Shown piece after piece: positions 12,162-26,378 of a DNA stretch of 64,000 nucleotides. The notes beneath the pieces were generated by a model. It made no database searches. It saw only the letters and a program-made list of their open reading frames with translations, and was not told where the DNA came from. Within the stretch, counting starts at the first letter, position 1. Each line of letters opens with the position of its first letter. The translations under genes and the position numbers were made by a program. This DNA comes from Ignavibacteriota bacterium (GTDB taxonomy: Bacteria > Bacteroidota > Ignavibacteria > Ignavibacteriales > Melioribacteraceae), in contig PAAX01000023.1 in NCBI GenBank assembly GCA_002698995.1, forward strand, positions 124,001 to 188,000. The letters are read 5' to 3'.

Positions 12162-14612
12162 TTATCCTAAATATTTTGATACTTTTATTAAATCTGAAAA
12201 TATTCCGAAAGCAGTATATTCTGCTCCAGCCCCTTTGCCTCTAATTACAAGGGGATAAGGAGAATGATTCTTTGTTTCAATAAGAACGATATTTTCTGTT
12301 CCTTTTAAGTTGAAGAAAGGATGAGATGAATCAATTTCATTCAAACCTACTTTAGCCTTCCCGTTTTTATAGGATGCAAAATATCTTAATACTTTATTAT
12401 TATTTATTGCGGATTTATTTCTATCCATTAAATGATTTTCATTCTCTTTTAATATCTGCATAAATTCATCAACACTGCAGTCTCTAGCATTTTCTGGGAC
12501 TAAACTCTCGACCTCAATTTCAGAAAGCTCCATTTTCACACCGGATTCCCTAATTAAAATCAATAATTTCCTTGCCATATCAAGTCCATTCAAATCATCT
12601 CTTGGATCTGGTTCAGTAAATCCTTTTTCCTTGGCATCAAAAACAATATCACTGAATTTTTTGTCTGCTTCAAATGAATTCAATATATAACTTAAGGTTC
12701 CGGAAAGAACACCTTCAATTTTGATAATTTCTTCTCCACCTTGAATTAATCCTTGAATAAGATCGATAACCGGGAGTCCCGCACCAACATTGGTTGAATA
12801 CATGAACTGCACATTATTCTGTATTGCTTTATTCCTTATCGTTTCCCATTTCTCAAATGATAATGTATTTGCAATTTTATTTGGTGTAATAACAGAAATA
12901 TTGGAATCCAATATAAATTCATAATGCTCTAGTACTTTATCTGTTGCAGTACAATCAATAAAGATTGAGTTTGCCAAATTCATCTCACGCATCGTATTTA
13001 TAAACGATTCTATGTTTGAATCAATTTCACTGTTTAATAAAGAATCTTTCCAATTTAACAAATCGATTCCATTCACATCGAAATACATTTTTTTACTGTT
13101 AGCAATTCCAATAATATTTGCATTAGTATGAAGCTTCTTGAATAAAAATTCTTTCTTCTCTTTTATATATTCTATAAAAGCACTTCCAACCAGTCCTGTT
13201 CCAATAATAAAAATATTTAATTCTTTTCTTGTTGAAAGAAACATCGCATCATGGATTACATTTAGTGCTTTAGACAATTGAGATTTCTTAATTACAAAAG
13301 ATATATTCAGTTCCGATGAACCCTGAGCAATCGCTTTCAAATTAACACCGTTTTTTCCTAATGCCTGAAATACTTTTCCTGATATACCGGGGGTCTCTCT
13401 CATATCTTCACCAACCACAGCTATCAATGATAAATCGGTCTCGGGATAAATTTTATTTACAATCTTATCTAAAATTTCTAATCGTAATTCATTTTCAATT
13501 ACAGCTTTTGCTTTTTCAGTAGTTTCGGGAAGAACACCAACACAAAGACTAATTCCAGATGAACCTTGAGTAATTATCAAAACCGGTATTTGATATTGTG
13601 AAAGTGCCTTGAATACTCTTGATACTATTTCCTGACTTCCGGCTAAACCGCTTCCTTCAATTCTTATTAAGGAAATATTGTCAATTGAAGAAATTCCTTT
13701 TGCACTGAATTTTAAATGAGGTTCTTTGGATAAAATTACTGTTCCTTTAAAACTAGGATTAAAAGTATTTCTAATTCTTATTTTAATATTTTTTTCAAGT
13801 GCTGGCTGCATTGTAGGTGGATGAATTACTTTTGCTCCGAAATATGACATCTCCATTGCTTCTTGATAAGTCACAGCTTTAAGTGGAATTGCATTCTTAA
13901 CTTTGCGTGGATCAGCAGTCATAATTCCATTTACATCTGTCCAGATTTCTATCTCTTCTGCATTAAGAGCCGCACCAAAAATTGCGGCAGTATAATCCGA
14001 ACCGCCTCTGCCAAGAGTTGTAATTTCATTATCAATTGTTGAAGCAATAAATCCGGTGATTATCTGCATTTTATCATGCAATGCAAAATAATCAGATATA
14101 TTTTTGTTGGTTTGTTCAAATAAAACTTTTGCAGTTCCATAATTATCATTCGTCTTTACAAGTTTCGATGCATCAAGGTATTCAGCAGTTATACCGGCAT
14201 GATTAACCGCTTCAGCAATAATTGTATTTGATAGTCTTTCACCAAAACTAACAACTAAATCTTTTATTCTGGGCGAAATATCTTTAAGTAAATATATTCC
14301 ATGAATGAGATCATGCAGCTCTTTAAATAACAGTTCAACTCTTTCTTTAATCTCAGAATTTTTAGCTGGGATTAATTCTTCAATTGTATTGAAATGCTTT
14401 AATCGAATATTTTGATATAATCCCAAATAAGATGAATCCTGTTTCGAAGCTATTTCGCTTAGCTTAAGTAAATTATCCGTTACAGTTTGAAAAGCAGAAA
14501 AAACAACTGCAATTTTTTCATTGTTCTTATGATAACTTTTTAAGATTTCTATAACAGATTTTATTCTTTCTGCGCTTCCAACTGACGATCCACCAAATTT
14601 TAGAACTTTCAT
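12162..14612 (-). CDS. thrA: Bifunctional aspartokinase / homoserine dehydrogenase
   Basis: A fused enzyme of about 816 residues. The aspartokinase part begins with VLKFGGSSVGS and contains GFIASTIDNEITTLGRGGSDY. Two ACT domains lie roughly at 310-460 (including LIAVVGEDMRETPG). The homoserine dehydrogenase part starts with FIIGTGLVGSAF and has SGTLSYILNSF. It performs the first and third steps of the threonine/methionine branch; ACT domains suggest threonine feedback. The start is set at ATG 14612, with AAGG just upstream; the earlier in-frame ATG 14624 has no ribosome site. Confidence 0.93.
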   Translation of the reverse strand: MKVLKFGGSSVGSAERIKSVIEILKSYHKNNEKIAVVFSAFQTVTDNLLKLSEIASKQDSSYLGLYQNIRLKHFNTIEELIPAKNSEIKERVELLFKELHDLIHGIYLLKDISPRIKDLVVSFGERLSNTIIAEAVNHAGITAEYLDASKLVKTNDNYGTAKVLFEQTNKNISDYFALHDKMQIITGFIASTIDNEITTLGRGGSDYTAAIFGAALNAEEIEIWTDVNGIMTADPRKVKNAIPLKAVTYQEAMEMSYFGAKVIHPPTMQPALEKNIKIRIRNTFNPSFKGTVILSKEPHLKFSAKGISSIDNISLIRIEGSGLAGSQEIVSRVFKALSQYQIPVLIITQGSSGISLCVGVLPETTEKAKAVIENELRLEILDKIVNKIYPETDLSLIAVVGEDMRETPGISGKVFQALGKNGVNLKAIAQGSSELNISFVIKKSQLSKALNVIHDAMFLSTRKELNIFIIGTGLVGSAFIEYIKEKKEFLFKKLHTNANIIGIANSKKMYFDVNGIDLLNWKDSLLNSEIDSNIESFINTMREMNLANSIFIDCTATDKVLEHYEFILDSNISVITPNKIANTLSFEKWETIRNKAIQNNVQFMYSTNVGAGLPVIDLIQGLIQGGEEIIKIEGVLSGTLSYILNSFEADKKFSDIVFDAKEKGFTEPDPRDDLNGLDMARKLLILIRESGVKMELSEIEVESLVPENARDCSVDEFMQILKENENHLMDRNKSAINNNKVLRYFASYKNGKAKVGLNEIDSSHPFFNLKGTENIVLIETKNHSPYPLVIRGKGAGAEYTAFGIFSDLIKVSKYLG

Positions 14613-14843: not shown

Positions 14844-14872
14844 TTGACAAAAAAGATTTAATGACTTAGTTT
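14844..14872 (+). promoter_or_regulatory. Candidate promoter of the ilv-leu operon
   Basis: TTGACA (14844-14849), 17 bases, TAGTTT (14867-14872) continuing as TAGTTTTG, which also fits the Bacteroidetes TAnnTTTG pattern. The predicted start near 14880 is less than ten bases before the leader ORF ATG at 14888. Confidence 0.68.
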
Positions 14873-14887
14873 TGTCCCTAATCAATT

Positions 14888-15067
14888 ATGAATAGCACAA
14901 AAAGAAATATCGAATCTACTAGAAATTTAACTTTGCAAAAAAGTAAAGTTCGTGCTATTGATGCATCAGAAGTAAGAAACCTATCTTTAGATATTCAACT
15001 CGTAGGGATTATCGGACTTATTATTAGCATTATTCTCCTTATTAACATTATTATTCTCATTGGCTAA
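14888..15067 (+). CDS. Probable ilv operon leader peptide (59 residues)
   Basis: A 59-codon ORF between the promoter and ilvD. The first 37 residues are polar; from Leu38 the sequence is almost only branched-chain residues: LVGIIGLIISIILLINIIIL, then IG and stop. Eleven of the last 19 codons are Ile and several others Leu. Stalling on scarce charged tRNA(Ile/Leu) here would uncover the RNA just after the stop, where competing hairpins form. This is the expected layout of an attenuator leader peptide. The alternative is a real tail-anchored membrane peptide of 21 hydrophobic residues; position before ilvD favours the leader reading. Confidence 0.7.
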   Translation: MNSTKRNIESTRNLTLQKSKVRAIDASEVRNLSLDIQLVGIIGLIISIILLINIIILIG

Positions 15068-15075
15068 TAATACTT

Positions 15076-15146
15076 CGGTCGATCCCAAAAAATAAAATTC
15101 AAATTGACATAACGCATAAAAGAATCTGGGATTGACCGGAATCCCA
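15076..15146 (+). promoter_or_regulatory. Mutually exclusive hairpins after the ilv leader ORF
   Basis: Strand 1 (15076-15087, CGGTCGATCCCA) pairs over 12 positions, with one G-U, with strand 2 (15127-15138, TGGGATTGACCG). Strand 2 can instead pair with strand 3 (TGGGATT with AATCCCA at 15140-15146). Strand 1 starts nine bases after the leader stop, so a ribosome on the stop codon would cover it and favour 2:3, while one stalled on the Ile codons would allow 1:2. The nearest T-run (15164-15168) is about 18 bases past strand 3, so this is not a textbook intrinsic terminator. Confidence 0.6.
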
Positions 15147-15205
15147 AGAGCTGTATCTGAAGGTTTTTGTCGTATTTATTTTAGATAAAAATCAACAGAG
15201 GAATT

Positions 15206-16888
15206 ATGCGGTCAGATTTAATAAAAAAAGGAATTGATAAAGCTCCCCACAGAAGTCTGCTTAAAGCAACAGGCGTTATTAAATCGGAAAATGATTTTAA
15301 TAAACCTTTCATTGGTATATGTAATTCCTACATTGATCTTATTCCAGGGCATGTCCATTTACAAGAATTCGGCAGAGTAGTTAAAGAAGCAGTAAGAGAA
15401 GCAGGCGGAGTTCCATTTGAATTCAATACAATTGGTGTTGATGATGGAATTGCAATGGGTCATATTGGAATGAGATTTTCTTTAGCCAGCAGAGAGTTAA
15501 TTGCCGATAGTCTTGAAACAGTTGCAGAAGCACATCGATTAGATGGATTAATTTGTATCCCAAACTGTGATAAAATAGTTCCTGGTATGTTGATGGGAGC
15601 AGCTAGAGTTAATATTCCAACAATTTTTATTTCTGGTGGACCAATGAAAGCGGGAGTTACCCCTTCAGGTCAAAAAGTTGATCTCATTTCTGTATTTGAA
15701 GGCGTTGGGCAGTATCAAAAAGGGGAAATAGACGACAGTAAATTAAAAGAGCTTGAAGACTTTGGATGTCCCACTTGCGGATCATGTTCGGGAATGTTCA
15801 CTGCAAATTCAATGAACTGTTTGATGGAAGCATTGGGAATGGCTCTTCCCGGCAATGGATCAATATTAGCAGTAGATGAAAAAAGAAAAGAATTAGCAAA
15901 AGAAGCTGCAAGAAAAGTTTTACACTTGGTAGAAAGAGATATAAAACCAAGAGATATAATTACTCGCGAATCATTAATGAATGCTTATGCTTTAGATATG
16001 GCAATGGGTGGAAGCACAAATACTATTCTGCATACTTTGTCTATTGCTCATGAAGCAGAAGTTGATTTTGATTATAAAGAACTGAATGAGTTATCTGCAA
16101 AAGTACCTTATATCTGTAAGGTTAGTCCAGCCACAAAAAATGTTCATATGGAAGATGTTGATAGAGCCGGCGGTATATCAGCAATTCTGAAAGAATTATC
16201 AAAGAAAGAAGGGCTTCTGGATTTATCAAGAATAACTGTTACCGGAAAAACTCTTGGAGAAAATATTGCAGATTCGAATAATAATGATTCTTCAGTGATA
16301 AAATCTGTTGAAGCTCCTTTTAAAAATACCGGTGGATTATCAATACTATTTGGAAATCTTGCACCAAATGGATCGGTAGTAAAAACAGCTGCTGTTGATG
16401 ATAAAATGCTGGTTCATAAAGGACCGGCTGTTGTATTTGAGTCGCAGGATGAAGCAATTAAAGGAATTATGAATAAAGAAGTTAAAGAGGGGGATGTTGT
16501 TGTTATTCGTTATGAAGGTCCAAAGGGAGGACCTGGAATGCCGGAAATGCTTACCCCAACAAGTTTAATTATGGGAATGGGTTTAGGAGATAAAGTTGCA
16601 TTAATTACTGATGGAAGATTCTCTGGTGGTACAAGAGGAGCTTGTGTTGGACACATTTCTCCTGAAGCTGCTGAAAGAGGTCCGATTGCTGCTATTAAAA
16701 ATGGTGATCAAATCGAAATTGATATTCCAAACAATTCAATTTCTGTCCATCTATCTAATGAAGAATTGAACGAAAGATTAAGTGAATTACCAAAGTTTGA
16801 AACAAGAATTAAAAAAGGGTATTTGGGACGTTATGCAAAGATGGTAACATCTGCAAGTACCGGCGCTGTTTTAAAATTACCGGAATAA
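15206..16888 (+). CDS. ilvD: Dihydroxy-acid dehydratase
   Basis: 560-residue IlvD/Edd enzyme converting dihydroxy acids to 2-keto acids in valine and isoleucine synthesis. Iron-sulfur ligand candidates are Cys39 (GICNSY), Cys121 (PNCDKIVPG) and Cys194 ([12 protein letters not shown]). [15 protein letters not shown] and [11 protein letters not shown] are standard blocks. AGAGGA precedes the ATG. It is first in the ilv-leu operon behind the leader peptide. Phosphogluconate dehydratase is an alternative within the family but is excluded by the operon context. Confidence 0.95.
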
Positions 16889-16906
16889 AAACAAAAGGAA
16901 CATATT

Positions 16907-18625
16907 ATGACCAGTGACAAAAAAAATATGAGCGGAGCGGACATTTTCTTTGAATGTCTGAAGATGGAGGGAGTTGAGTATATCTTCGGATATCCCGGAG
17001 GTGCAGTTCTAAAATTGTATGAAAAACTTCATGATGTCGATTTCCTCAATCATATTCTTGTCCGTCATGAGCAAGGTGCAACTCATATGGCTGAAGGTTA
17101 TGCCAAAGCTACCGGTAAACCAGGAGTTGTTCTTGTAACATCGGGTCCAGGTGCAACTAATACAGTTACTGGAATTGCTGATGCATATATGGATTCTGTT
17201 CCGATTGTTGTTTTTACCGGACAAGTTCCAACTCACTTAATTGGGAATGATGCTTTTCAAGAAGCTGATATAGTTGGAATTACGAGACCGATTACAAAAC
17301 ATAATTTCTTGGTAAGAGATGTTAAGGAATTAGCATCAACAATTCGAAAAGCATTTTATATAGCTTCAAGCGGAAGACCTGGTCCAGTGCTTGTTGATCT
17401 TCCCAAAGATGTAATTAATAGTGAATGTGAATTTGAATATCCTAATGAAGTTGAAATGAGAGGATACAAACCAAAACTTTATGGTCATATAAATCAAATC
17501 AAAAAAGCTGCAACAATGATTCAAAATGCAAAACGTCCTTTATTTTATGTTGGCGGCGGTGTCATTATGTCGGGTGGACATAGAGAACTTCATCTTCTTG
17601 CTAAGGAAACCGGTGTTCCAGTAACAATGACGCTTCAAGGACTTGGAGCTTTTCCGATGACGGATAAACAATCACTTGGAATGTTAGGTATGCATGGTAC
17701 TTACTGGGCAAATCAAGCTGTAAATAATTGTGATTTGCTTGTATCACTTGGAGCCAGATTCGATGACAGAGTAACAGGAAAAATAGAATCGTTTGCCAAC
17801 AAAGCATATAAAATTCATGTTGATATTGATCCAACCTGTATTGATAAGAATGTGCTTGTTGATCTTCCTATTGTTGGAGATGTAAAACATGTAATGGCAG
17901 AATTAGCATCAGAGATAAATCAAATGAACGATTTAACCGATTGGTGGAATAAAATTGAAGATTGGAAAAATGAATGTCCATTAACTTTTGAAAGTAATGA
18001 TGGAAGATTAAGATCGGAACACATAATTACAAAATTATCAGAACTAACTAATGGAAATGCCGTTGTGGTTACTGATGTCGGTCAGCATCAAATGTGGACT
18101 GCACAGTATTACAAATATACTCATCCTCGTTCTAACCTTACAAGCGGAGGTTTAGGAACAATGGGTTTCTCGGTTCCGGCTGCAATTGGGGCGTCATTTG
18201 GTGTTAAGGATAGACCTGTAGTTTCACTTAATGGTGACGGCGGTTTCCAGATGAATATTCAAGAATTGATAACTGCAGCTTACTATAAACTACCTATCAA
18301 ATTTATAATTCTTAATAATTCATTTTTAGGAATGGTTCGGCAGTGGCAGGAATTATTTCATGCGGAAAAATTCAGTTTTACAGATTTAAGCCACAGTAAT
18401 CCCGACTTCAAAAAAGTTGGTGAAGCATTTGGACTAAAATCTTTCTCAACTGATAATCCAAAAGATGTTGAATCAATATTAAAGGAGATGCTCGAATATA
18501 ATGAAGGACCAACATTAGCTGAATTCAAAGTAGTTAAGGAAGACATGGTATTCCCAATAATTCCTTCAGGAGCATCAATTAATGAAATGATTACAAAACG
18601 TTTAGACCCAAAAGAGATGATGTAA
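16907..18625 (+). CDS. ilvB: Acetolactate synthase, large (catalytic) subunit
   Basis: 572 residues, three-domain ThDP enzyme. Glu55 (VRHEQGATHMAEG) is the cofactor-activating acid; NGDGGFQMNIQEL with the downstream LNNSFLGMVRQW is the ThDP/Mg motif. It joins two pyruvates, or pyruvate and 2-oxobutyrate, at the first common step. FAD-binding residues are of the anabolic type and the regulatory subunit gene follows by one base, which distinguishes it from catabolic enzymes. Confidence 0.95.
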   Translation: MTSDKKNMSGADIFFECLKMEGVEYIFGYPGGAVLKLYEKLHDVDFLNHILVRHEQGATHMAEGYAKATGKPGVVLVTSGPGATNTVTGIADAYMDSVPIVVFTGQVPTHLIGNDAFQEADIVGITRPITKHNFLVRDVKELASTIRKAFYIASSGRPGPVLVDLPKDVINSECEFEYPNEVEMRGYKPKLYGHINQIKKAATMIQNAKRPLFYVGGGVIMSGGHRELHLLAKETGVPVTMTLQGLGAFPMTDKQSLGMLGMHGTYWANQAVNNCDLLVSLGARFDDRVTGKIESFANKAYKIHVDIDPTCIDKNVLVDLPIVGDVKHVMAELASEINQMNDLTDWWNKIEDWKNECPLTFESNDGRLRSEHIITKLSELTNGNAVVVTDVGQHQMWTAQYYKYTHPRSNLTSGGLGTMGFSVPAAIGASFGVKDRPVVSLNGDGGFQMNIQELITAAYYKLPIKFIILNNSFLGMVRQWQELFHAEKFSFTDLSHSNPDFKKVGEAFGLKSFSTDNPKDVESILKEMLEYNEGPTLAEFKVVKEDMVFPIIPSGASINEMITKRLDPKEMM

Positions 18626-18626
18626 T

Positions 18627-19127
18627 ATGAAACATATAATTTCAGTTTTAGTCGAGAATCAATTTGGAACATTTAACAGAGTAGTTACAATGTTCAGCGG
18701 CAAGGGATTTAATGTCAGCAGCCTTAGTATTGGTGAAACTGAAAATCCCGAAGTATCCAGAATGACTATCGTTACATCAGGTGATGATAAGATTATTGAA
18801 CAGGTTGTAAAACAGCTTAACAGATTAATAGATACTATCAAAGTGGTTGATTTAACTGAAGCTCATACAGTCCAAAGAGAACTTGCATTAGTAACGGTGA
18901 ATTATCAAAAGAGTACAAGAGCAGAAATTATTGATGTATGCGAAATATTTAGAGGAAAGATTGTTGACATAAATAATAAATCTATGATGATTGAAATTAC
19001 AGGTCCTCCTGAAAAAATTGATGCTGCAGTAAATGTCTTAGAACCGTTTGGGATAAAAGAAATGGCAAGATCAGGAAATGTTGCTCTTAAAAGAGGTGAA
19101 CAATTATCTAAAGAAAATTCAGAATGA
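18627..19127 (+). CDS. ilvH: Acetolactate synthase, small (regulatory) subunit
   Basis: 166 residues. The N-terminal ACT domain reads ISVLVENQFGTFNRV...GFNVSSLSIGETE, followed by the C-terminal ALS_ss domain (VQRELALVTVNY). It confers valine feedback on IlvB. The ATG is one base after the ilvB stop, so translation is coupled. Confidence 0.94.
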   Translation: MKHIISVLVENQFGTFNRVVTMFSGKGFNVSSLSIGETENPEVSRMTIVTSGDDKIIEQVVKQLNRLIDTIKVVDLTEAHTVQRELALVTVNYQKSTRAEIIDVCEIFRGKIVDINNKSMMIEITGPPEKIDAAVNVLEPFGIKEMARSGNVALKRGEQLSKENSE

Positions 19128-19150
19128 AATTCTAATAAGGAGAAAAATAA

Positions 19151-20140
19151 ATGAAAGTATATTATGATGCAGATGCATCACTCGAGAATTTGAAGGATAA
19201 AAACCTAGCAGTTATAGGATACGGCAGTCAAGGACATGCGCATGCATTGAATCTAAAAGATAGCGGACTGAATGTAGCAGTTGGTTTGAGAAAATCAAGC
19301 GCAAGATGGAAAGAAGCTGAAGAAGCCGGATTAAAGGTGATGACTGTTTCCGAAGCAGCTGAATGGGGTGATATTGTTATGATCTTATTGCCAGATCAAA
19401 ATCATAAAGAGGTTTATGAGAATGAAATAAAAGATCATTTAAAAGAAGGTAATACTCTTGCATTCGGACATGGGTTTAATATTCTTTACAATCAAGTAGT
19501 TCCTCCAAAAAATGTTAACGTAATGATGATTGCTCCCAAAAGTCCCGGTCATCTTGTTAGAAGAACATATCAGCAGGGAAGCGGTACCCCATGTTTAATT
19601 GCAGTTGAACAAGATTTTTCCGGTAATACTAAGGATCTCGCTCTGGCATGGGCAAAGGGAATTGGAGGAACTAGAGCTGGAGTTATAGAAACTAATTTCA
19701 AAGATGAAACTGAAACCGATTTATTTGGTGAACAAGCTGTTCTCTGCGGTGGATCTGAAGAATTAATTAAAGCTGGATTTGAAACATTAGTTGAAGCTGG
19801 ATATCCTCCGGAACTGGCTTATTTTGAATGCCTGCATGAATTAAAACTCATTGTTGATCTCTACTATGAAGGGGGATTGTCAAGAATGAATTATTCTGTA
19901 AGTGATACGGCTGAATACGGCGGTTTAGTTAAAGGAAGAAAGGTTATTACTTCAGATACTAAAAAGGCGATGAAGGAAATTCTGACAGATATACAAACCG
20001 GAAAGTTTGCTGAAGAATGGATTGAAGAAAATAAAAATGGTCAGCCCGTTCTTAATCAGTTAAGAAAAGAATCTGAATCACATCCAATTGAAAAGGTTGG
20101 TGCAAAGTTACGCCAAATGATGAGTTGGTTGAAAAATTAA
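19151..20140 (+). CDS. ilvC: Ketol-acid reductoisomerase (class I)
   Basis: 329 residues, the short class I form. The nucleotide site is [32 protein letters not shown] and the [17 protein letters not shown] metal site are diagnostic. Arg and Ser residues after the second strand (LRKSSARW) suggest NADPH. It rearranges and reduces acetolactate/acetohydroxybutyrate. A ribosome site AAGGAG precedes the ATG. Confidence 0.96.
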
Positions 20141-20160
20141 AATTTAGGAGAAATTAAAAA

Positions 20161-21255
20161 ATGTTCAAAGTTACACTTTTACCGGGTGATGGAATTGGTC
20201 CCGAAGTGATTAATGCCGCAGTTAATGTATTAAAATATGCAGCTGAAAAGTTTAATATAGAATTTGAATTTACTGAAAAGGAAATCGGAGGATGTTCCTA
20301 TGAAAAGTATGGAACTCCCTTAACTGATGAAGTGCTTAGCGAATGCTACAGCTCTGATGCAGTATTTTTAGGTGCAGTTGGGGGACCTAAATGGGAGAAA
20401 CTTCCTCATAATTTAAAACCGGAAGCCGCACTTCTAAAGCTCAGAAAGTCACTTGGATTGTATGCAAATCTTCGTCCGGCAAAAGTGTATAACTCGATGT
20501 TATCTGCCTCTTCTCTTAAAGAATCAGTCTTAGCTGATACTGATGTTATGATTCTTAGAGAATTAACAGGCGGAATCTACTTTGGTGAACCAAGAGGTTA
20601 TGATTCTGATAAAGGATTTAACACAATGGTTTATTCTAGAGATGAAGTTGAACGAATTGCTAGATATGCTTTTGAATTGGCGAGAGGGAGAAAAGGAAGA
20701 GTTACATCAGTTGATAAAGCTAATGTTTTGGAAGTATCGCAATTTTGGAGAGATACAGTTCATCAGGTTCATACTGAATATCCTGATGTTGAACTTAATG
20801 ATATGTACGTTGATAATGCAGCTATGCAGTTAGTGCGTGATCCGAAACAATTTGATCTAATTCTAACTTCAAATCTATTTGGTGATATTCTTAGTGATAT
20901 TGCAGCAATGATAACCGGTAGTTTAGGAATGCTTCCTTCTGCAAGCATAGGTAAAAATTATGCTTTATATGAACCGGTTCATGGAAGTGCTCCAGATATT
21001 GCCGGACAAGGAAAAGCTAATCCTATTGCAGCTATAGCATCAGCAGCTATGATGCTGAAATATTCTTTTGAGATAGATAAGGCTTCGGAATTAATTGAAT
21101 GTTCACTTGAAAATATTTTAGCTGAAGGATATAGAACAGCCGATATATTTTCTGAAGGATGCAAATTAGTTACAACAATTCAAATGACTGATTTAGTAAT
21201 TGAAGAATTTGATAAACTCTATGTTGATCAAGCTATTAATGTCTTCACTTTATAA
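20161..21255 (+). CDS. leuB: 3-isopropylmalate dehydrogenase
   Basis: 364 residues of the isocitrate/isopropylmalate dehydrogenase family. Visible are LPGDGIGPEV, LRKSLGLYANLRP (substrate loop with the Leu typical of LeuB), VDKANVLEVSQFWR, the metal-site Asp cluster in NLFGDILSDIAAM, and HGSAPDIAGQGKANP with the NAD-type region. In this operon it can also oxidise 3-methylmalate on the citramalate route to isoleucine. Confidence 0.95.
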   Translation: MFKVTLLPGDGIGPEVINAAVNVLKYAAEKFNIEFEFTEKEIGGCSYEKYGTPLTDEVLSECYSSDAVFLGAVGGPKWEKLPHNLKPEAALLKLRKSLGLYANLRPAKVYNSMLSASSLKESVLADTDVMILRELTGGIYFGEPRGYDSDKGFNTMVYSRDEVERIARYAFELARGRKGRVTSVDKANVLEVSQFWRDTVHQVHTEYPDVELNDMYVDNAAMQLVRDPKQFDLILTSNLFGDILSDIAAMITGSLGMLPSASIGKNYALYEPVHGSAPDIAGQGKANPIAAIASAAMMLKYSFEIDKASELIECSLENILAEGYRTADIFSEGCKLVTTIQMTDLVIEEFDKLYVDQAINVFTL

Positions 21256-21279
21256 TACTTGAAATCATAAGAGGGAAAA

Positions 21280-22863
21280 ATGAATAATAACAAAATATTG
21301 ATTTTTGATACAACTTTACGAGATGGAGAGCAGTCGCCGGGAGCTTCATTAAACATTAATGAAAAGTTGGAAATTGCTCATCAATTAGCCAGATTAAATG
21401 TTGATGTGATTGAAGCGGGTTTCCCAATTTCATCTCCAACTCAGTTTGAAGCTGTTAAAAGAATTGCTGAAGAAGTTGATGTAATTATTGCAGGATTGGC
21501 AAGAGCTAGTGAAAAGGATATAAAAGCGTGTGCCGATGCATTAGTTAGTGCTAAGAAACCAAGAATTCATACATTCTCAAGCACATCTGATTTTCATATT
21601 CTTGGAAAATTTAGTCATCCCAGATATGGAAACAGTCTTGAAGAAAAAAGAAAGACTATAATTAAAATGTCTTATGATGCTGTTGCTTATGCTAAAACCT
21701 TTACTAATGATATTGAATTTTCTGCAGAAGATGCAGGCAGAACAGATTTAGGTTATTTAGCGGAAGTAATTGAAGCAGCTATTGAGGCAGGAGCAACCAC
21801 TGTTAATATTCCTGATACTACAGGCTATACTCTTCCATCAGAGTTTGGTAATAAGATTGCAGAATTGAAAAAGCGGGTCAGCAACATTGATAAAGCAATC
21901 ATATCTGTTCACTGCCATGATGATCTTGGATTAGCTGTCGCAAATTCTCTTGCAGGTATTGAAAACGGTGCTAGACAAATTGAATGTACTGTAAACGGAA
22001 TTGGCGAGCGTGCCGGAAATGCATCGTTAGAAGAAATTGTAATGGCATTAAAAGTAAGAAGTGATTTGTTTGATTATTACACTGATATAAAGTCAAAAGA
22101 GATTTTTAATACAAGTAAAATGGTTTCTGCTTTTACAGGAATTGTAGTTCAAAGAAATAAAGCGATTGTAGGGGAGAATGCATTCTCTCATGAATCCGGA
22201 ATACATCAAGATGGAGTTTTGAAGAATAGAGATACTTATGAAATCATGACTCCTGAAAGTGTTGGTATTCCTAAAAATAAAATTGTTCTTGGAAGACATT
22301 CAGGAAGACATGGTCTCAAAGCAAGATTAGAAGAATTAGGTTATAAAGTATCAGAAGATGAATTGAATCATGTATATGATTCGTTTACTGAGCTGGCAGA
22401 TAAAAAGAAAGAAATATTTGATGATGATTTAAGAATCCTAATGGGAGATGAAATTCATAACATTAATGAATTTTATGAATTGGAAAATATTCAAGTCAAT
22501 TCCGGTACAAACTCAATTCCAAATGCGGTAGTCAAAATTAAAGTTAAGGATCAATTTGTTGAAGAAGCTTCAATCGGTGATGGTCCTGTTGATGCAGTAT
22601 TTAATGCTATTGAAAGAGCTTTGAAGATAAAATCAGAAGTTGAATCTTATCAAGTTAGATCAGTTACATCCGGTAGAGAAGCTTTGGGAGAAGTGTTAGT
22701 AAGAATAAGAAGCAATGAAAAATCTTTTAACGGCAGAGGTATTTCGACTGATATAATTGAGGCAAGTGCAAAAGCTTACTTGTCGGCATTAAATCAAAAA
22801 GAATTATACAAGAATGAAGTAGAAGATTTAAAAAGAAAAGAAAATTTATCACAAGCAATTTAA
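21280..22863 (+). CDS. leuA: 2-isopropylmalate synthase
   Basis: 527 residues. The catalytic TIM barrel starts [17 protein letters not shown]; the metal site is [16 protein letters not shown] and [14 protein letters not shown] follows. The C-terminal LeuA dimerisation/regulatory domain (about residues 385-510, with [16 protein letters not shown]) indicates leucine feedback. It condenses acetyl-CoA and 2-oxoisovalerate. HSGRHG after the barrel agrees with LeuA. Confidence 0.94.
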
Positions 22864-22875
22864 GGGATTAATTAA

Positions 22876-24171
22876 ATGGGAATGACCATAACTGAGAAAA
22901 TACTTGCAAAAGCTTCCGGAAGAGATAAGGTTAATCCGGGCGAAAATATATGGCTTAATGTAGATGTTTTAATGACTCACGATGTTTGTGGTCCGCCTAC
23001 AATTGGTATTTGGAAGAGAGAATTTGGCAATGATGCTAAGATTTGGGATAAAGATAAATTAGTAATTTTTCCTGATCACTACATTTTTACTGCTAATCCT
23101 CAAGCAAACAGAAATGTAAATATTTTAAGAGAGTTTGCTGCTGAGTATAATCTTCCAAATTATTACGATGTTGGAACAGATAGATATAAAGGAGTCTGCC
23201 ATATTGCATTAGCAGAAGAAGGTTATAATGTTCCCGGTACTGTTTTATTCGGTACTGATTCACACACTTGCACTTCAGGTGCATTTGGAATGTTTTCAAC
23301 CGGAGTCGGAAATACTGATGCTGCATTCATTTTGGGTACCGGCAAAATTTGGGAAAAGGTACCCGAATCATTGAAGTTTACTTTTGAAGGTGAGCTTCCC
23401 CCATATTTAACCGCCAAAGATTTAATTCTACAAGTTCTTGGGGATATTACTACAGACGGTGGAACATACAGAGCTTTGGAATTTGACGGTTCTGCTGTAT
23501 TTGCTATGCAGATGGATGAAAGAATGACTCTTACTAACATGGCTATTGAAGCAGGTGCAATGAATGGTATAATTGCTGCTGATAAGGTAACTGAGGATTA
23601 TGTGAAAGCACGTACTAATAAACCATATGAATTATTCTATAGTGATGGTGATGCAAAGTACAGACAGAAATTTGTTTATGATGCATCAAAAATGGAACCG
23701 CTAGTTGCAAAACCGCATAGTCCTGATAACAAAGATACAGTAAGAAACGTAGAGGGAACAAAATTAACTAAGTGTTATATCGGTTCTTGTACTGGAGGAA
23801 AATTAAGCGACTTTGTAAATGCGGCAAAACTTCTTTTTGGAAATCAAGTTAAGGTTCCGACTTTTGTCGTTCCCGCATCCACACTCGTAGCAAAGCAGCT
23901 TGAAGAAGAAACTATTAGTGGTGTTTCATTAAGACAAATATTTGAAAATGCCGGTTGTGAAATTGCTCAGTCATCTTGTGCAGCATGTTTAGGCGGACCA
24001 ATGGATACAGTCGGAAGAGCTACAGATGGTGAAGTTGTAATATCAACTACAAATAGAAATTTCCCGGGAAGAATGGGAAGTAAAAAATCTGAGGTTTACT
24101 TGGCTTCTCCTTATACTGTTGCTGCTTCTGCTTTAACTGGTGTTATAACAGATCCAAGAGACTTTTTATAA
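22876..24171 (+). CDS. leuC: 3-isopropylmalate dehydratase, large subunit
   Basis: 431-residue aconitase-family subunit of the two-gene, archaeal-like type. FGTDSHTCTSGAFG holds the first cluster Cys, CYIGSCTGGKLSDF the second and SSCAACLGGP the third. It isomerises isopropylmalate with LeuD, and very likely citramalate for isoleucine. The length, shorter than the approximately 466 residues of E. coli LeuC, places it with LeuC2/HacA-type proteins; homoaconitase activity is possible but unsupported by neighbours. Confidence 0.93.
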   Translation: MGMTITEKILAKASGRDKVNPGENIWLNVDVLMTHDVCGPPTIGIWKREFGNDAKIWDKDKLVIFPDHYIFTANPQANRNVNILREFAAEYNLPNYYDVGTDRYKGVCHIALAEEGYNVPGTVLFGTDSHTCTSGAFGMFSTGVGNTDAAFILGTGKIWEKVPESLKFTFEGELPPYLTAKDLILQVLGDITTDGGTYRALEFDGSAVFAMQMDERMTLTNMAIEAGAMNGIIAADKVTEDYVKARTNKPYELFYSDGDAKYRQKFVYDASKMEPLVAKPHSPDNKDTVRNVEGTKLTKCYIGSCTGGKLSDFVNAAKLLFGNQVKVPTFVVPASTLVAKQLEEETISGVSLRQIFENAGCEIAQSSCAACLGGPMDTVGRATDGEVVISTTNRNFPGRMGSKKSEVYLASPYTVAASALTGVITDPRDFL

Positions 24172-24192
24172 AATTGAAAATAGAGAAATAAA

Positions 24193-24750
24193 ATGGAAAA
24201 AATAATTAAAGGAAAAGCATTTGTACTTGGGGATAATATTGATACCGATCAAATTATTCCCGCTGAACATTTAGTATATAGTTTGACTGATCCGGAAGAA
24301 GTTAAAATGTATGGAAAATATGCTCTTTCAGGTGTTCCCTTAAATTCATCAGGATTGCCTAGTGGCGGAATTCTTTTTACAAAAGAAACTGAGTATGAAT
24401 CTGAATTTTCAATAATTGTTGGAGGTTCTAATTTCGGATGCGGTTCATCTAGAGAACATGCTCCCTTTGCACTTCAAGTTGCTGGAGCAAAAGCAATAAT
24501 TGCCGAATCTTATGCAAGAATTTTTTATAGAAATTCGGTTGACGGGGGATTCGTTATTCCTTATGAAACACAAATAAAATTGAATGACAAAATTAAAACA
24601 GGCGATGAATTGGAAATAGATTTAGTTGGCAACACAGTTAAAAATCATACCACAGAAGAATTATATACATTAAATCCGCTTGGAGATATACTTCCAATAA
24701 TAGAAGCCGGAAATATCTTTGAGTATGCAAGACAAAATAATATGATGTAA
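24193..24750 (+). CDS. leuD: 3-isopropylmalate dehydratase, small subunit
   Basis: 185-residue swivel domain: GDNIDTDQIIPAEHL at the N-terminus and GGSNFGCGSSREHAPFAL as the substrate loop with the conserved Ser-Arg. The size is that of the archaeal-like small subunit, matching the LeuC encoded just upstream. Co-transcription is indicated by the 21-base gap. Confidence 0.93.
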   Translation: MEKIIKGKAFVLGDNIDTDQIIPAEHLVYSLTDPEEVKMYGKYALSGVPLNSSGLPSGGILFTKETEYESEFSIIVGGSNFGCGSSREHAPFALQVAGAKAIIAESYARIFYRNSVDGGFVIPYETQIKLNDKIKTGDELEIDLVGNTVKNHTTEELYTLNPLGDILPIIEAGNIFEYARQNNMM

Positions 24751-24794
24751 TTCGGCTAAGTAAATTCAATAATAAAATAGTAATAGAGGAAAAA

Positions 24795-26378
24795 ATGTTT
24801 ATAGAAATATTTGATACCACACTCCGCGATGGCACTCAAGGTGAAGGAATAAATTTATCTGTTCAAGATAAATTATTAATTGCACAAAGATTAGATGAGT
24901 TTGGTATTGATATTATTGAAGGAGGCTGGCCTGGAAGTAATCCTAAGGATGAAGAATTTTTTCAAAAAGCAAAAACACTTAGTCTAAAGCATGCAAAGCT
25001 TTGCGCATTTGGATCAACAGCAAGATCGATTGAAAATGTTAAAGGTGATGCAAATTTAAATGCATTATTGCGGGCTGAAACTCCGGCAGTATCTATTTTT
25101 GGTAAAACTTGGAGACTTCATTCTTCTTTAGGTTTGGGACTAACTGATGATGAAAATGCTGAATTAATTTATCAATCGGTCAAATTAATGAAAGAGAACG
25201 GGAAACTTCTAGTTTTTGATGCAGAACATTTTTTTGACGGCTATAAGGATGATAAGGATTTTTCATACAAAATGTTAGATGCTGCCGTAAATGCCGGTGC
25301 AGATAGACTTGTGCTTTGTGATACAAACGGGGGAACTCTTCCTTCAGAGATTTATGAAATTGTAAAGGATATAAAATCAAGATATAGTTTAACTATCGGT
25401 ATTCATGCACATAATGACTCTGAACTGGCAGTTGCAAATTCCCTTGCTGCTGTAAATGCAGGTGCTGCTCATGTGCAGGGAACACTAAATGGTGTTGGTG
25501 AAAGATGCGGTAATGCTAATCTAAGTTCAATCATTCCTAATATTATTCTAAAACTTAATTATGATACAAATCAAAAAAGTAAACTTGATACTCTTACTCA
25601 TCTCTCAAATTATGTTTATGAGTTAATGAATCTTGCTCCTAATTCAAGAGCAGCTTTTACAGGTAAGTCGGCTTTTGCCCATAAGGGGGGAGTTCATGTA
25701 AGTGCAGTTATGAAAGAAAGCAAAATGTATGAACACATTACACCTGAATTAGTTGGAAATAAACAGAGAGTTTTGGTAAGTGATCTTTCCGGTCAAAGTA
25801 ATATTCGTTATAAAGCTAAAGAAATAGGAATTGATTTATCCGAAGAAAAAGAACTTAGCAGAAGAGTTGTTGATTATATAAAAAATTTAGAGTACGAAGG
25901 ATTTCAATTTGATGGTGCTGAAGCTTCATTCGAATTACTTTTAAGATCAGAGCTTAATGAATTCAGTCCTTTCTTTAGAGTTCTTGATTCAAAAGTAAAT
26001 GTGACTTATGATGATAAAGGACATTCCAATGCCGAAGCAGTTTTAAAGATTTCTGTCGATAATGAGATTGAACATACTGCATCTGATGGTGATGGTCCGG
26101 TTAACGCTTTAGATAATGCTCTGCGTAAAGCATTATTAAGATTTTATCCAGAGATATCATTAATAAAATTAGTTGATTATAAAGTCAGAGTACTTGACGA
26201 AAAAGATGGAACAGGTGCTAAAGTTAGAGTTATGATTCAATCTGGTGACGGATATGAGACTTGGAGCACTGTTGGAGTTTCCAGCAATATTATTGAAGCC
26301 AGTTTTGCTGCATTGAGTGATAGTATTAACTATAAGTTATTCCAATATCATAAAGCTGATAAGAAATTAGCAAACTAA
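24795..26378 (+). CDS. cimA: (R)-citramalate synthase
   Basis: 527 residues, paralogous to LeuA. The start [19 protein letters not shown] and EGGWPGSNPKDEEFF are characteristic of CimA rather than LeuA; IGIHAHNDSELAVANS is the metal site and NGVGERCGNANL follows. A C-terminal regulatory domain (about 390-520) is present. It makes citramalate from pyruvate and acetyl-CoA, bypassing threonine deaminase. Being last in the ilv-leu operon ties isoleucine supply to the same attenuator. AGAGGA precedes the ATG. Confidence 0.94.
   Translation: MFIEIFDTTLRDGTQGEGINLSVQDKLLIAQRLDEFGIDIIEGGWPGSNPKDEEFFQKAKTLSLKHAKLCAFGSTARSIENVKGDANLNALLRAETPAVSIFGKTWRLHSSLGLGLTDDENAELIYQSVKLMKENGKLLVFDAEHFFDGYKDDKDFSYKMLDAAVNAGADRLVLCDTNGGTLPSEIYEIVKDIKSRYSLTIGIHAHNDSELAVANSLAAVNAGAAHVQGTLNGVGERCGNANLSSIIPNIILKLNYDTNQKSKLDTLTHLSNYVYELMNLAPNSRAAFTGKSAFAHKGGVHVSAVMKESKMYEHITPELVGNKQRVLVSDLSGQSNIRYKAKEIGIDLSEEKELSRRVVDYIKNLEYEGFQFDGAEASFELLLRSELNEFSPFFRVLDSKVNVTYDDKGHSNAEAVLKISVDNEIEHTASDGDGPVNALDNALRKALLRFYPEISLIKLVDYKVRVLDEKDGTGAKVRVMIQSGDGYETWSTVGVSSNIIEASFAALSDSINYKLFQYHKADKKLAN

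Follow-up and report, generated by a model that had tools for sequence, protein, structure and literature searches.

The window, a 64,000-nucleotide stretch of DNA from an Ignavibacteriota bacterium, carries a nine-gene operon for branched-chain amino acid (BCAA) synthesis, ilvD-ilvB-ilvN-ilvC-leuB-leuA-leuC-leuD-cimA. The genes were assigned by NCBIfam; the models whose cut-off leuC passes are at subfamily level, and leuD falls short of the cut-off of its best-scoring model. An earlier reading of the letters alone (the sequence-only reading) had proposed this operon, together with a promoter, a 59-codon leader ORF with its stop at 15065-15067, and three strands able to pair in alternative ways. 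Genes, promoter and leader ORF were all found as claimed. The features of the region, in window positions, are as follows.

14844-14874, forward strand: promoter, TTGACA (14844-14849) and TAGTTTTG (14867-14874), from the sequence
14888-15067, forward strand: leader ORF, 59 codons, ATG at 14888 to TAA at 15065-15067, from the ORF translation
14891-14898, forward strand: 5' arm of hairpin P1, AATAGCAC, directly 3' of the leader start codon, pairs with 14952-14959
14905-14909, forward strand: A[AC]ATA motif (here AAATA), on the 5' side inside P1, near-invariant in relatives
14929-14950, forward strand: inner hairpin P2, AACTTTGC/GTAAAGTT, from folding and the pairing map
14952-14959, forward strand: 3' arm of P1, GTGCTATT, pairs with 14891-14898
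14983-14994, forward strand: strand Z, ATCTTTAGATAT, in the leader coding sequence just before A, pairs with E, present in the minimum free energy (MFE) fold
15005-15010, forward strand: strand A, GGGATT, Gly-Ile codons, pairs with B or D
15020-15028, forward strand: outer 5' arm of hairpin H, ATTATTAGC, inside the Ile run, pairs with 15063-15071
15063-15071, forward strand: outer 3' arm of H, GCTAATAAT, includes the leader stop codon, pairs with 15020-15028
15074-15087, forward strand: strand B (formerly strand 1), TTCGGTCGATCCCA, pairs with C, from covariation
15127-15140, forward strand: strand C (formerly strand 2), TGGGATTGACCGGA; B:C is the antiterminator-like helix
15140-15145, forward strand: strand D (formerly strand 3), AATCCC, pairs with C (GGGATT) or A
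15153-15164, forward strand: strand E, GTATCTGAAGGT, pairs with Z or F
15164-15168, forward strand: U-rich tract, a T-run directly 3' of E, from T enrichment in relatives
15184-15201, forward strand: strand F and the ilvD Shine-Dalgarno sequence GAGG, from E:F pairing
15206-26378, forward strand: the operon ilvD to cimA, from NCBIfam

The second promoter box fits TAnnTTTG, which we take to be the Bacteroidetes -7 element. The promoter was absent from the listing of a sigma-70 scan, and a search aimed at the TTGAC box found it at the matching place in 54 of 54 relatives. With transcription assumed to start 35 nt after the beginning of TTGACA, the leader ATG follows about 9 nt later, in agreement with the earlier claim that the ORF begins near the transcript end. 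Its last 22 residues, LVGIIGLIISIILLINIIILIG, had been described as 11 Ile plus several Leu, and were counted as 11 Ile, 5 Leu and 1 Val. The leader ORF matched no Pfam family significantly (best E 0.087).

The region folds better than shuffled sequence, with z = -3.5 for 14880-15210 (0 of 100 shuffles as good) and z = -3.6 for 15060-15210 (1 of 200). In the window, B:C is a helix of 14 bp including two G-U pairs, with a 12-bp core. The 12-bp stem that had been described nine bases past the stop codon is therefore present as this core, while the full helix begins after a gap of 6 nt and the core after one of 8 nt. The AATCCC of D complements the GGGATT of C, which bears out the proposed alternative pairing of strands 2 and 3. 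The scheme has to be amended from three strands to four, with A, upstream of the Ile run, joining B, C and D. Since A resembles C and D resembles B, either A:B with C:D or B:C with A:D can form; the latter is part of the MFE fold of the window. Hairpin H sits within the A:B hairpin.

A T-box or known riboswitch was rejected, as no curated RNA family matches the element: Rfam gave no match there up to E 5 in the window and none at gathering threshold in 15 loci of relatives. A snoTBR5 match at 13865-13958 scored under the gathering score and was taken as chance. SAM riboswitches lie close to the ilv region in two relatives (L017, 3661-3764, forward strand; L025, 774-885, reverse strand), outside the leader.

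Conservation of the leader and its helices in Ignavibacteriales

The IlvD protein of the window was used as query against 58 genomes of relatives and against 164 genomes of the order, of which 57 hold an orthologue at E ≤ 1e-200. At 54 of the 56 Ignavibacteriales loci inspected, ilvD is preceded by a leader built in the same way. The 54 leaders share one plan, consisting of a TTGAC box, an ORF of 46-59 codons ending in an Ile/Leu/Val run, the stop codon, strand B, a loop, and strands C and D. The B-C loop is A-rich and G-poor (mean 35.5 nt, 6% G). Ile, Leu and Val account for 72% of the last 20 codons (minimum 60%) versus 25% of residues 2-31. Alignment with related leaders had been suggested as a check, and over the 54 leaders it showed conserved C-terminal Ile/Leu codons and a less constrained N-terminus. 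Pooled pN/pS was 0.75 in the N-terminal part versus 0.47 in the last 21 codons (22 overlapping close pairs, uncorrected).

The two ilvD loci without a leader, outside the 54, are L039 and L040. The genome of L039 (G075) carries the element elsewhere, ahead of ilvB (L175). That of L040 (G076), which is 85% complete, has ilvD with no leader there and no covariance model match. At a 57th locus (G109) a contig end cuts the ilvD match, and the leader and the ilvD start lie on another contig (L188).

A covariance model, R1, of the sequence downstream of the stop codon, built with B:C only, matched 72 of the 164 genomes at E ≤ 0.1, and 71 once G140 was dropped, whose match showed no leader on reading (L192) and was considered spurious. 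In the window genome only the ilvD site was significant, the next two matches having E values of 3.6 and 9.3. Two of the 57 orthologue genomes gave no match, namely G076 and G054, in which a leader is visible by eye (L026). The element was also found ahead of ilvB in 11 genomes of genus g52, G104 and G112 (by eye; L173 by NCBIfam), and ahead of leuB in G002 (NCBIfam). It thus stays with BCAA genes when the first gene changes, and follows these genes rather than one particular gene.

Several individual copies deviate from the plan. In G036 (contig C37, L184) a copy lies ahead of a class-II glutamine amidotransferase gene (Pfam GATase_2), and by eye its leader has Thr, Lys, Pro and Ala codons instead of the Ile/Leu run. 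Second leader copies occur in G014 (contig C120, L182), followed by only the first few ilvD codons, and in G122 (contig C40, L183), near a contig end with no ilvD seen; we read both as duplicated or decaying operon starts. The leader L060 (G156) is interrupted by an in-frame TGA, six codons short of the usual stop. As this MAG is 75% complete, the early TGA may be an error or mark a decaying leader; L060 was left out of the second folding model described below (53 leaders), and elsewhere its stop was set to the homologous position of its relatives.

In genus g52 (L170-L175, L185, L187, L189-L191) a second ORF of 56-67 codons lies between leader and ilvB. By eye its start is IlvD-like in most members (VRSDSKYTGY... 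versus VRSDLIKTGY...), and 30-70% of its last 20 codons are Ile, Leu or Val. The GTGAGAT at its start can pair with a downstream ATCTCAC in 10 of 11 cases; both are invariant, so there is no covariation. A strand further downstream pairs with the stop region of this ORF (score 22.2 vs 18.2 ± 1.0 permuted, 0 of 300 as high). The ORF resembles a further attenuator in tandem with the first, apparently derived from the 5' end of an ilvD that has been lost.

B:C, C:D, A:B, A:D and E:F, and the pairing map below, were assayed on non-redundant sets of 44 sequences, obtained by removing ten near-copies from the 54 (a different ten for the E:F test). For B:C, 85.4% of cells were paired, and the covariation score was 0.257 vs 0.167 ± 0.010 for shuffled alignments, none of 500 being as high; slid structures did not exceed 0.089. 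Both sides had changed in 7 of 12 pairs, a count reached by 6 of 500 shuffles. One of the five measures, further pair types, was not above shuffles (191 of 500). Covariation in strands 1-3 had also been put forward as a check: strands 1 and 2 do covary, and strand 3 has retained the ability to fold with its partner. Indeed, C:D compared with shuffled tails gave a mean z of -1.87, with z < -1 in 33 of 44 leaders.

For A:B and for A:D, none of 300 permutations scored as high. By synonymous shuffling, A:B was significant only when pooled (15.7 vs 14.4, sd 0.29) and in none of the 54 leaders singly; this is a weak test of A:B because most leaders have few Gly codons. The Gly codon at strand A is GGG in 39 of 52 cases, versus 13 of 132 Gly codons elsewhere in the leaders. 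Where GGA stands at A, B contains TTCC in 4 of 11 leaders (L013, L015, L019, L047) versus 1 of 39 with GGG (L041).

Same-species pairing was then set against cross-species pairing in an alignment-free map of 1655 pairs of sequence windows from 44 leaders. Since species permutation keeps the shared base composition, the yardstick for each z-value is the background of the map itself (mean z 0.32, sd 1.12). The values were 6.9 for P1, 5.9 for P2 (ATG+34 with ATG+49), 4.6 for B:C and 4.0 for Z:E. Hairpin H reached 5.2 in its inner part (STOP-35 with STOP-20) and 2.8-3.1 in outer arms placed as in the window. The values for C:D (3.7), E:F (3.6) and A:D (3.5) are within the tail expected for 1655 pairs, and these three helices rest on the targeted tests.

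P1 scored 17.7; with arms exchanged between species the score was 13.4 ± 0.36, and the highest of 300 permutations reached 14.6. The A[AC]ATA motif occurs within ATG+14 to +34 in 52 of 54 leaders and within the control interval ATG+34 to +54 in 5 of 54; it stands exactly at ATG+17 in 31 of 44, and is found in all three reading frames. For the P1 score and the control count, the start of L005 and L059 was set at an upstream codon. Mean column identity in an alignment of 44 leaders was 42% with no invariant column, and no conserved core was seen in it beyond the start codon and the pentanucleotide. The long polar N-terminal part of the leader, noted as unusual in the sequence-only reading, is explained by P1/P2 (14891-14959) occupying those codons.

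Z:E gave a mean of 18.5 vs 16.5 ± 0.41 permuted (0 of 300 as high, maximum 17.8; p 0.045 for the window alone). Species differed, from 18 consecutive pairs in L034 to some no better than chance. We thus amend the element to include Z:E and P1/P2. As judged from the comparison of sequences, mutually exclusive helices appear to be kept by compensatory change, namely B:C, the A:B, A:D and C:D helices, which are weaker in the map, and Z:E. Altogether, the codon run, strands A, B, C, D, Z and E, hairpins H, P1 and P2, and their conservation are supported by these comparisons.

Ribosome position, output step and alternative readings

Two folding models were used to follow the predicted effect of a ribosome on the leader. 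In the first, a 30-nt ribosome block was moved along 54 leaders, with the A-site position given relative to the end of the stop codon. On average, predicted B:C pairing was 0.82-0.90 for the A site at -60 to -12 and 0.83 at -6, and fell to 0.13 at 0, one codon past the stop, while C:D rose from 0.02 to 0.29. In the window alone B:C was still 0.48 at position 0, with C:D at 0.00. In the second model, with full 3' context and 53 leaders, B:C was 0.67-0.78 in the Ile run (0.67 at -60) and 0.22 with the stop codon in the A site. For Z:E the number of expected pairs rose from 0.6 at -60 to 5.5 at -42; it was 5.8 once the stop codon occupied the A site, and 8.1 without a ribosome. These averages suggest that a ribosome at the stop codon undoes B:C and that an early-stalled ribosome undoes Z:E. 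The modelled switch holds averaged over the 53-54 leaders and partly in the window. Stalling on Ile/Leu codons had been expected to favour pairing of strands 1 and 2; B:C is indeed predicted to be kept across the Ile run, but it is already the default fold. We therefore amend the scheme, with B:C as the modelled equilibrium default that a ribosome at the stop codon would undo.

The earlier reading placed a T-run about 18 bases past strand 3 and regarded it as a misfit to the textbook arrangement, correctly on both counts. The run at 15164-15168 begins 18 nt after D, and a T5 within 10 nt behind the folded C:D hairpin was found in only 2 of 54 leaders (L013 and L036, not the window); none of the 54 has a T5 in the first 12 nt behind C. 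C:D is thus not a textbook 3:4 terminator, and in this respect the element departs from a classic attenuator. An intrinsic terminator at C:D was rejected on these counts and on a scan whose only terminator-like match lies on the minus strand. With a U-run so rarely close behind C:D, the output step could be termination after Z:E, Rho action or translation.

A recognisable E motif is missing in 19 of 54 leaders. Sequence behind E is enriched in T, with a fraction of 0.61 against 0.31 elsewhere in the region (Wilcoxon p 5e-5; tested on those 25 of 44 leaders whose E motif is recognisable). Of 35 leaders with the motif, 12 carry a T5 run after E by a strict rule and 14 by a laxer one. A complementary distribution of T-run and E:F was considered and dropped (table 13, 8, 6, 8; p 0.32); for this table the motif scan picked up an upstream CTAAAG in L034, L037 and L042. 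A gene for Rho was found. The most likely off step would be that transcription ends prematurely, intrinsically or with help from Rho, at the U-rich tract or beyond it, and we rate this above translational control.

From these features we infer a scheme covering leader translation, the direction of regulation, the off-mechanism and the role of P1. Transcription would start just ahead of the leader ORF, with the ribosome trailing RNA polymerase through the leader. When Ile, Leu and Val are plentiful, the ribosome at the stop codon would lie against B and block B:C, allowing C:D to form; Z would be uncovered, Z:E would form directly before the U-rich tract, and the operon would be off. In shortage, a ribosome stalled at the first Ile/Leu codons would cover Z and A, B:C would form, E would stay free, and transcription would continue into ilvD. 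If no ribosome loads, A:B (with H) could form first, followed by C:D and Z:E, leaving the operon off by default. As the equilibrium fold without a ribosome is B:C, such a default-off state would need kinetic folding. A role for P1/P2, placed around the leader start codon, may be to restrict or time the loading of ribosomes. The direction follows biosynthetic logic: an operon that is off when the cell is fed would have C:D plus Z:E as its off state.

The element is thus probably, as the sequence-only reading proposed, a ribosome-mediated attenuator, reading the supply of charged tRNA for Ile, Leu and Val. We suggest tentatively, as a possibility with the balance somewhat against it, that its terminator is split: the 5' half, Z, would belong to the leader coding sequence, with some 160 nt separating it from E and the U-rich tract downstream, a stalled ribosome would sit on the terminator itself, and B:C/C:D together with P1 would make this a single-ribosome decision.

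The same ribosome-sensing leader might act on translation instead, with E:F by the Shine-Dalgarno sequence of the first gene opening or closing with the position of the leader ribosome. E:F recurs across leaders (11.4 vs 10.5 ± 0.33 permuted, 1 of 300 as high; 44 leaders) and overlaps AGAGG, and both the near-absence of a terminator behind C:D and the persistence of Shine-Dalgarno sequence and start codon in genus g52, although the ilvD body is gone, would suit such an output. However, E:F is unclear in many species (16 of 35 reach the score limit), and Z:E as the rival partner of E would give a translational switch the wrong sign for a biosynthetic operon. Moreover, predicted Shine-Dalgarno access with a stalled ribosome was higher in 11 and lower in 13 of 53 leaders, the others being within 0.05, and Shine-Dalgarno masking was rejected as a consistent output. 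We regard translational output as unlikely.

It is improbable that P1/P2 form a separate sensing domain, binding a ligand or a protein, with the leader peptide being only part of the input. P1 and P2 do give the strongest signals of the pairing map, and A[AC]ATA is near-invariant inside P1 in all three frames, but a domain of this kind is at odds with the lack of any Rfam family at the element (window and 15 relative loci) and of a conserved core besides start codon and pentanucleotide. Even less credible is an ORF encoding a small stable membrane protein, with incidental hairpins. The leader C-terminus is hydrophobic enough for a membrane helix and pN/pS is below 1 in both parts, which taken by itself would still allow such a protein, yet protein-level constraint on the N-terminal part is weak, no Pfam family matches significantly, the RNA pairing partners in P1 and B:C change together, the L060 leader stops six codons early, and the preference for GGG at strand A speaks against a small protein. 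Chance, meaning AT-rich DNA with an open frame and hairpins, might be considered from single-locus fold z-scores of only about -3.5 and from a crude Ile/Leu/Val (ILV) criterion that also flags 5 of 32 distant loci (L125-L156), but it is refuted by conservation at 54 of 56 loci and specific covariance model matches in the order.

Occurrence outside the order and comparison with known systems

A search of the phylum with IlvD (392 genomes) gave 108 matches, and 30 loci were fetched and inspected. Genomes of named species were also searched, and the best 80 of 553 loci were considered. Among these 80, the best matches are Ignavibacteria, including two MAGs labelled Melioribacter roseus, followed lower down by Calditrichota, KSB1 and Neomarinimicrobiota, then mostly Chloroflexi and Nitrospirae.

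In family f27, presumably Chlorobiaceae, 9 of the 12 loci fetched have an ORF with an ILV-rich end ahead of ilvD, and MAGs labelled Calditrichota, KSB1 and Neomarinimicrobiota have such ORFs in this position too. An ungapped test applied to 27 loci from other lineages found a B:C helix at p < 0.05 in 11. The sequence of some of these (L120, L130, L117) differs considerably, and in one (L090) the helix is at an unexpected place close to ilvD; L100 is labelled KSB1 and L130 is from an unplaced bacterium. The same test found no B:C in 7 of 8 Neomarinimicrobiota loci and 8 of 8 f27 loci. Left out of the 27 were L114, L118, L119 and L122 (no B:C by eye), L066, L067, L070 and L072, and the incomplete L088. 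Similar leaders with stems thus occur in MAGs labelled Calditrichota and KSB1. Since the crude ILV criterion also flags distant loci, these occurrences outside the order are only a lead.

If the attenuator reading is right, a poorly studied group would gain a regulator of BCAA synthesis and an RNA model to search with, and attenuation that lacks the usual terminator could be studied on this element. The BCAA genes would very probably be on only when those amino acids run short. A possible reason for long leaders also emerges, namely that the N-terminal codons carry RNA structure.

Leader-peptide attenuation is best known from Proteobacteria and Actinobacteria. In the trp and ilvGMEDA attenuators of E. 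coli, the leader ORF holds codons for the end product, and 1:2/3:4 pairing excludes 2:3. The element described here resembles enterobacterial attenuators in having a leader ORF with end-product codons, a stop codon a few nucleotides before strand 2 (in enterobacterial numbering) and a BCAA operon downstream, as well as mutually exclusive 1:2/3:4 versus 2:3 helices. It differs in that a U-run behind 3:4 is rare (2 of 54), that one half of a long-range helix, Z, is leader coding sequence, and that P1/P2 stand at the start of a leader of 46-59 codons with a long structured N-terminal part. At the sequence level this comparison was made via Rfam only.

A closer parallel to the ordinary type was seen in genome G002, of the same bacterial family, where two tandem Ile-rich leaders, MKTIKNILVLIISIIIIQ and MKNFSLINIILLIIVIIIPGYWE, lie within about 400 nt upstream of an ilvD of the other type (L029). 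They resemble the element in placing Ile-rich peptides ahead of an ilvD, and differ in being 18 and 23 codons long, each followed by a hairpin and a U-run (by eye). Thus, ordinary-looking attenuators exist beside the odd ones in one family.

In 2010, the authors of a Firmicute case stated that, to their knowledge, no leader-peptide attenuation had been shown outside Proteobacteria and Actinobacteria before it, ermC apart (PMC2965389, consulted in part). In the literature searched, with most subscription journals outside its scope, we found no leader-peptide attenuation in Ignavibacteria. The S. aureus ilv-leu operon has a leucine-rich attenuator peptide in control of BCAA synthesis (PMC5794164, consulted in part). 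It is like the present element in using an attenuator peptide for this control, and is set apart, by that description, as a leucine-rich peptide of a Firmicute with CodY.

The Corynebacterium ilvB-II, ilvB-OMG and Leptospira ilvB motifs each place a uORF with many BCAA codons ahead of an ilv operon and are thought to act by transcription attenuation, ilvB-OMG being reported from various phyla (PMC10272879, consulted in part). The element shares with them the BCAA-rich uORF ahead of an ilv operon. It differs in the first gene and, from ilvB-II and ilvB, also in lineage, and the available part of that source mentions no helix like Z:E and no start-codon hairpin; the element matched no Rfam family. 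Thus, the sensing principle is of the known enterobacterial and ilvB-uORF type, and what is new, as far as the literature searched goes, comprises the family of leaders itself, a Z:E helix whose 5' half is leader coding sequence, and a covarying hairpin at the start codon.
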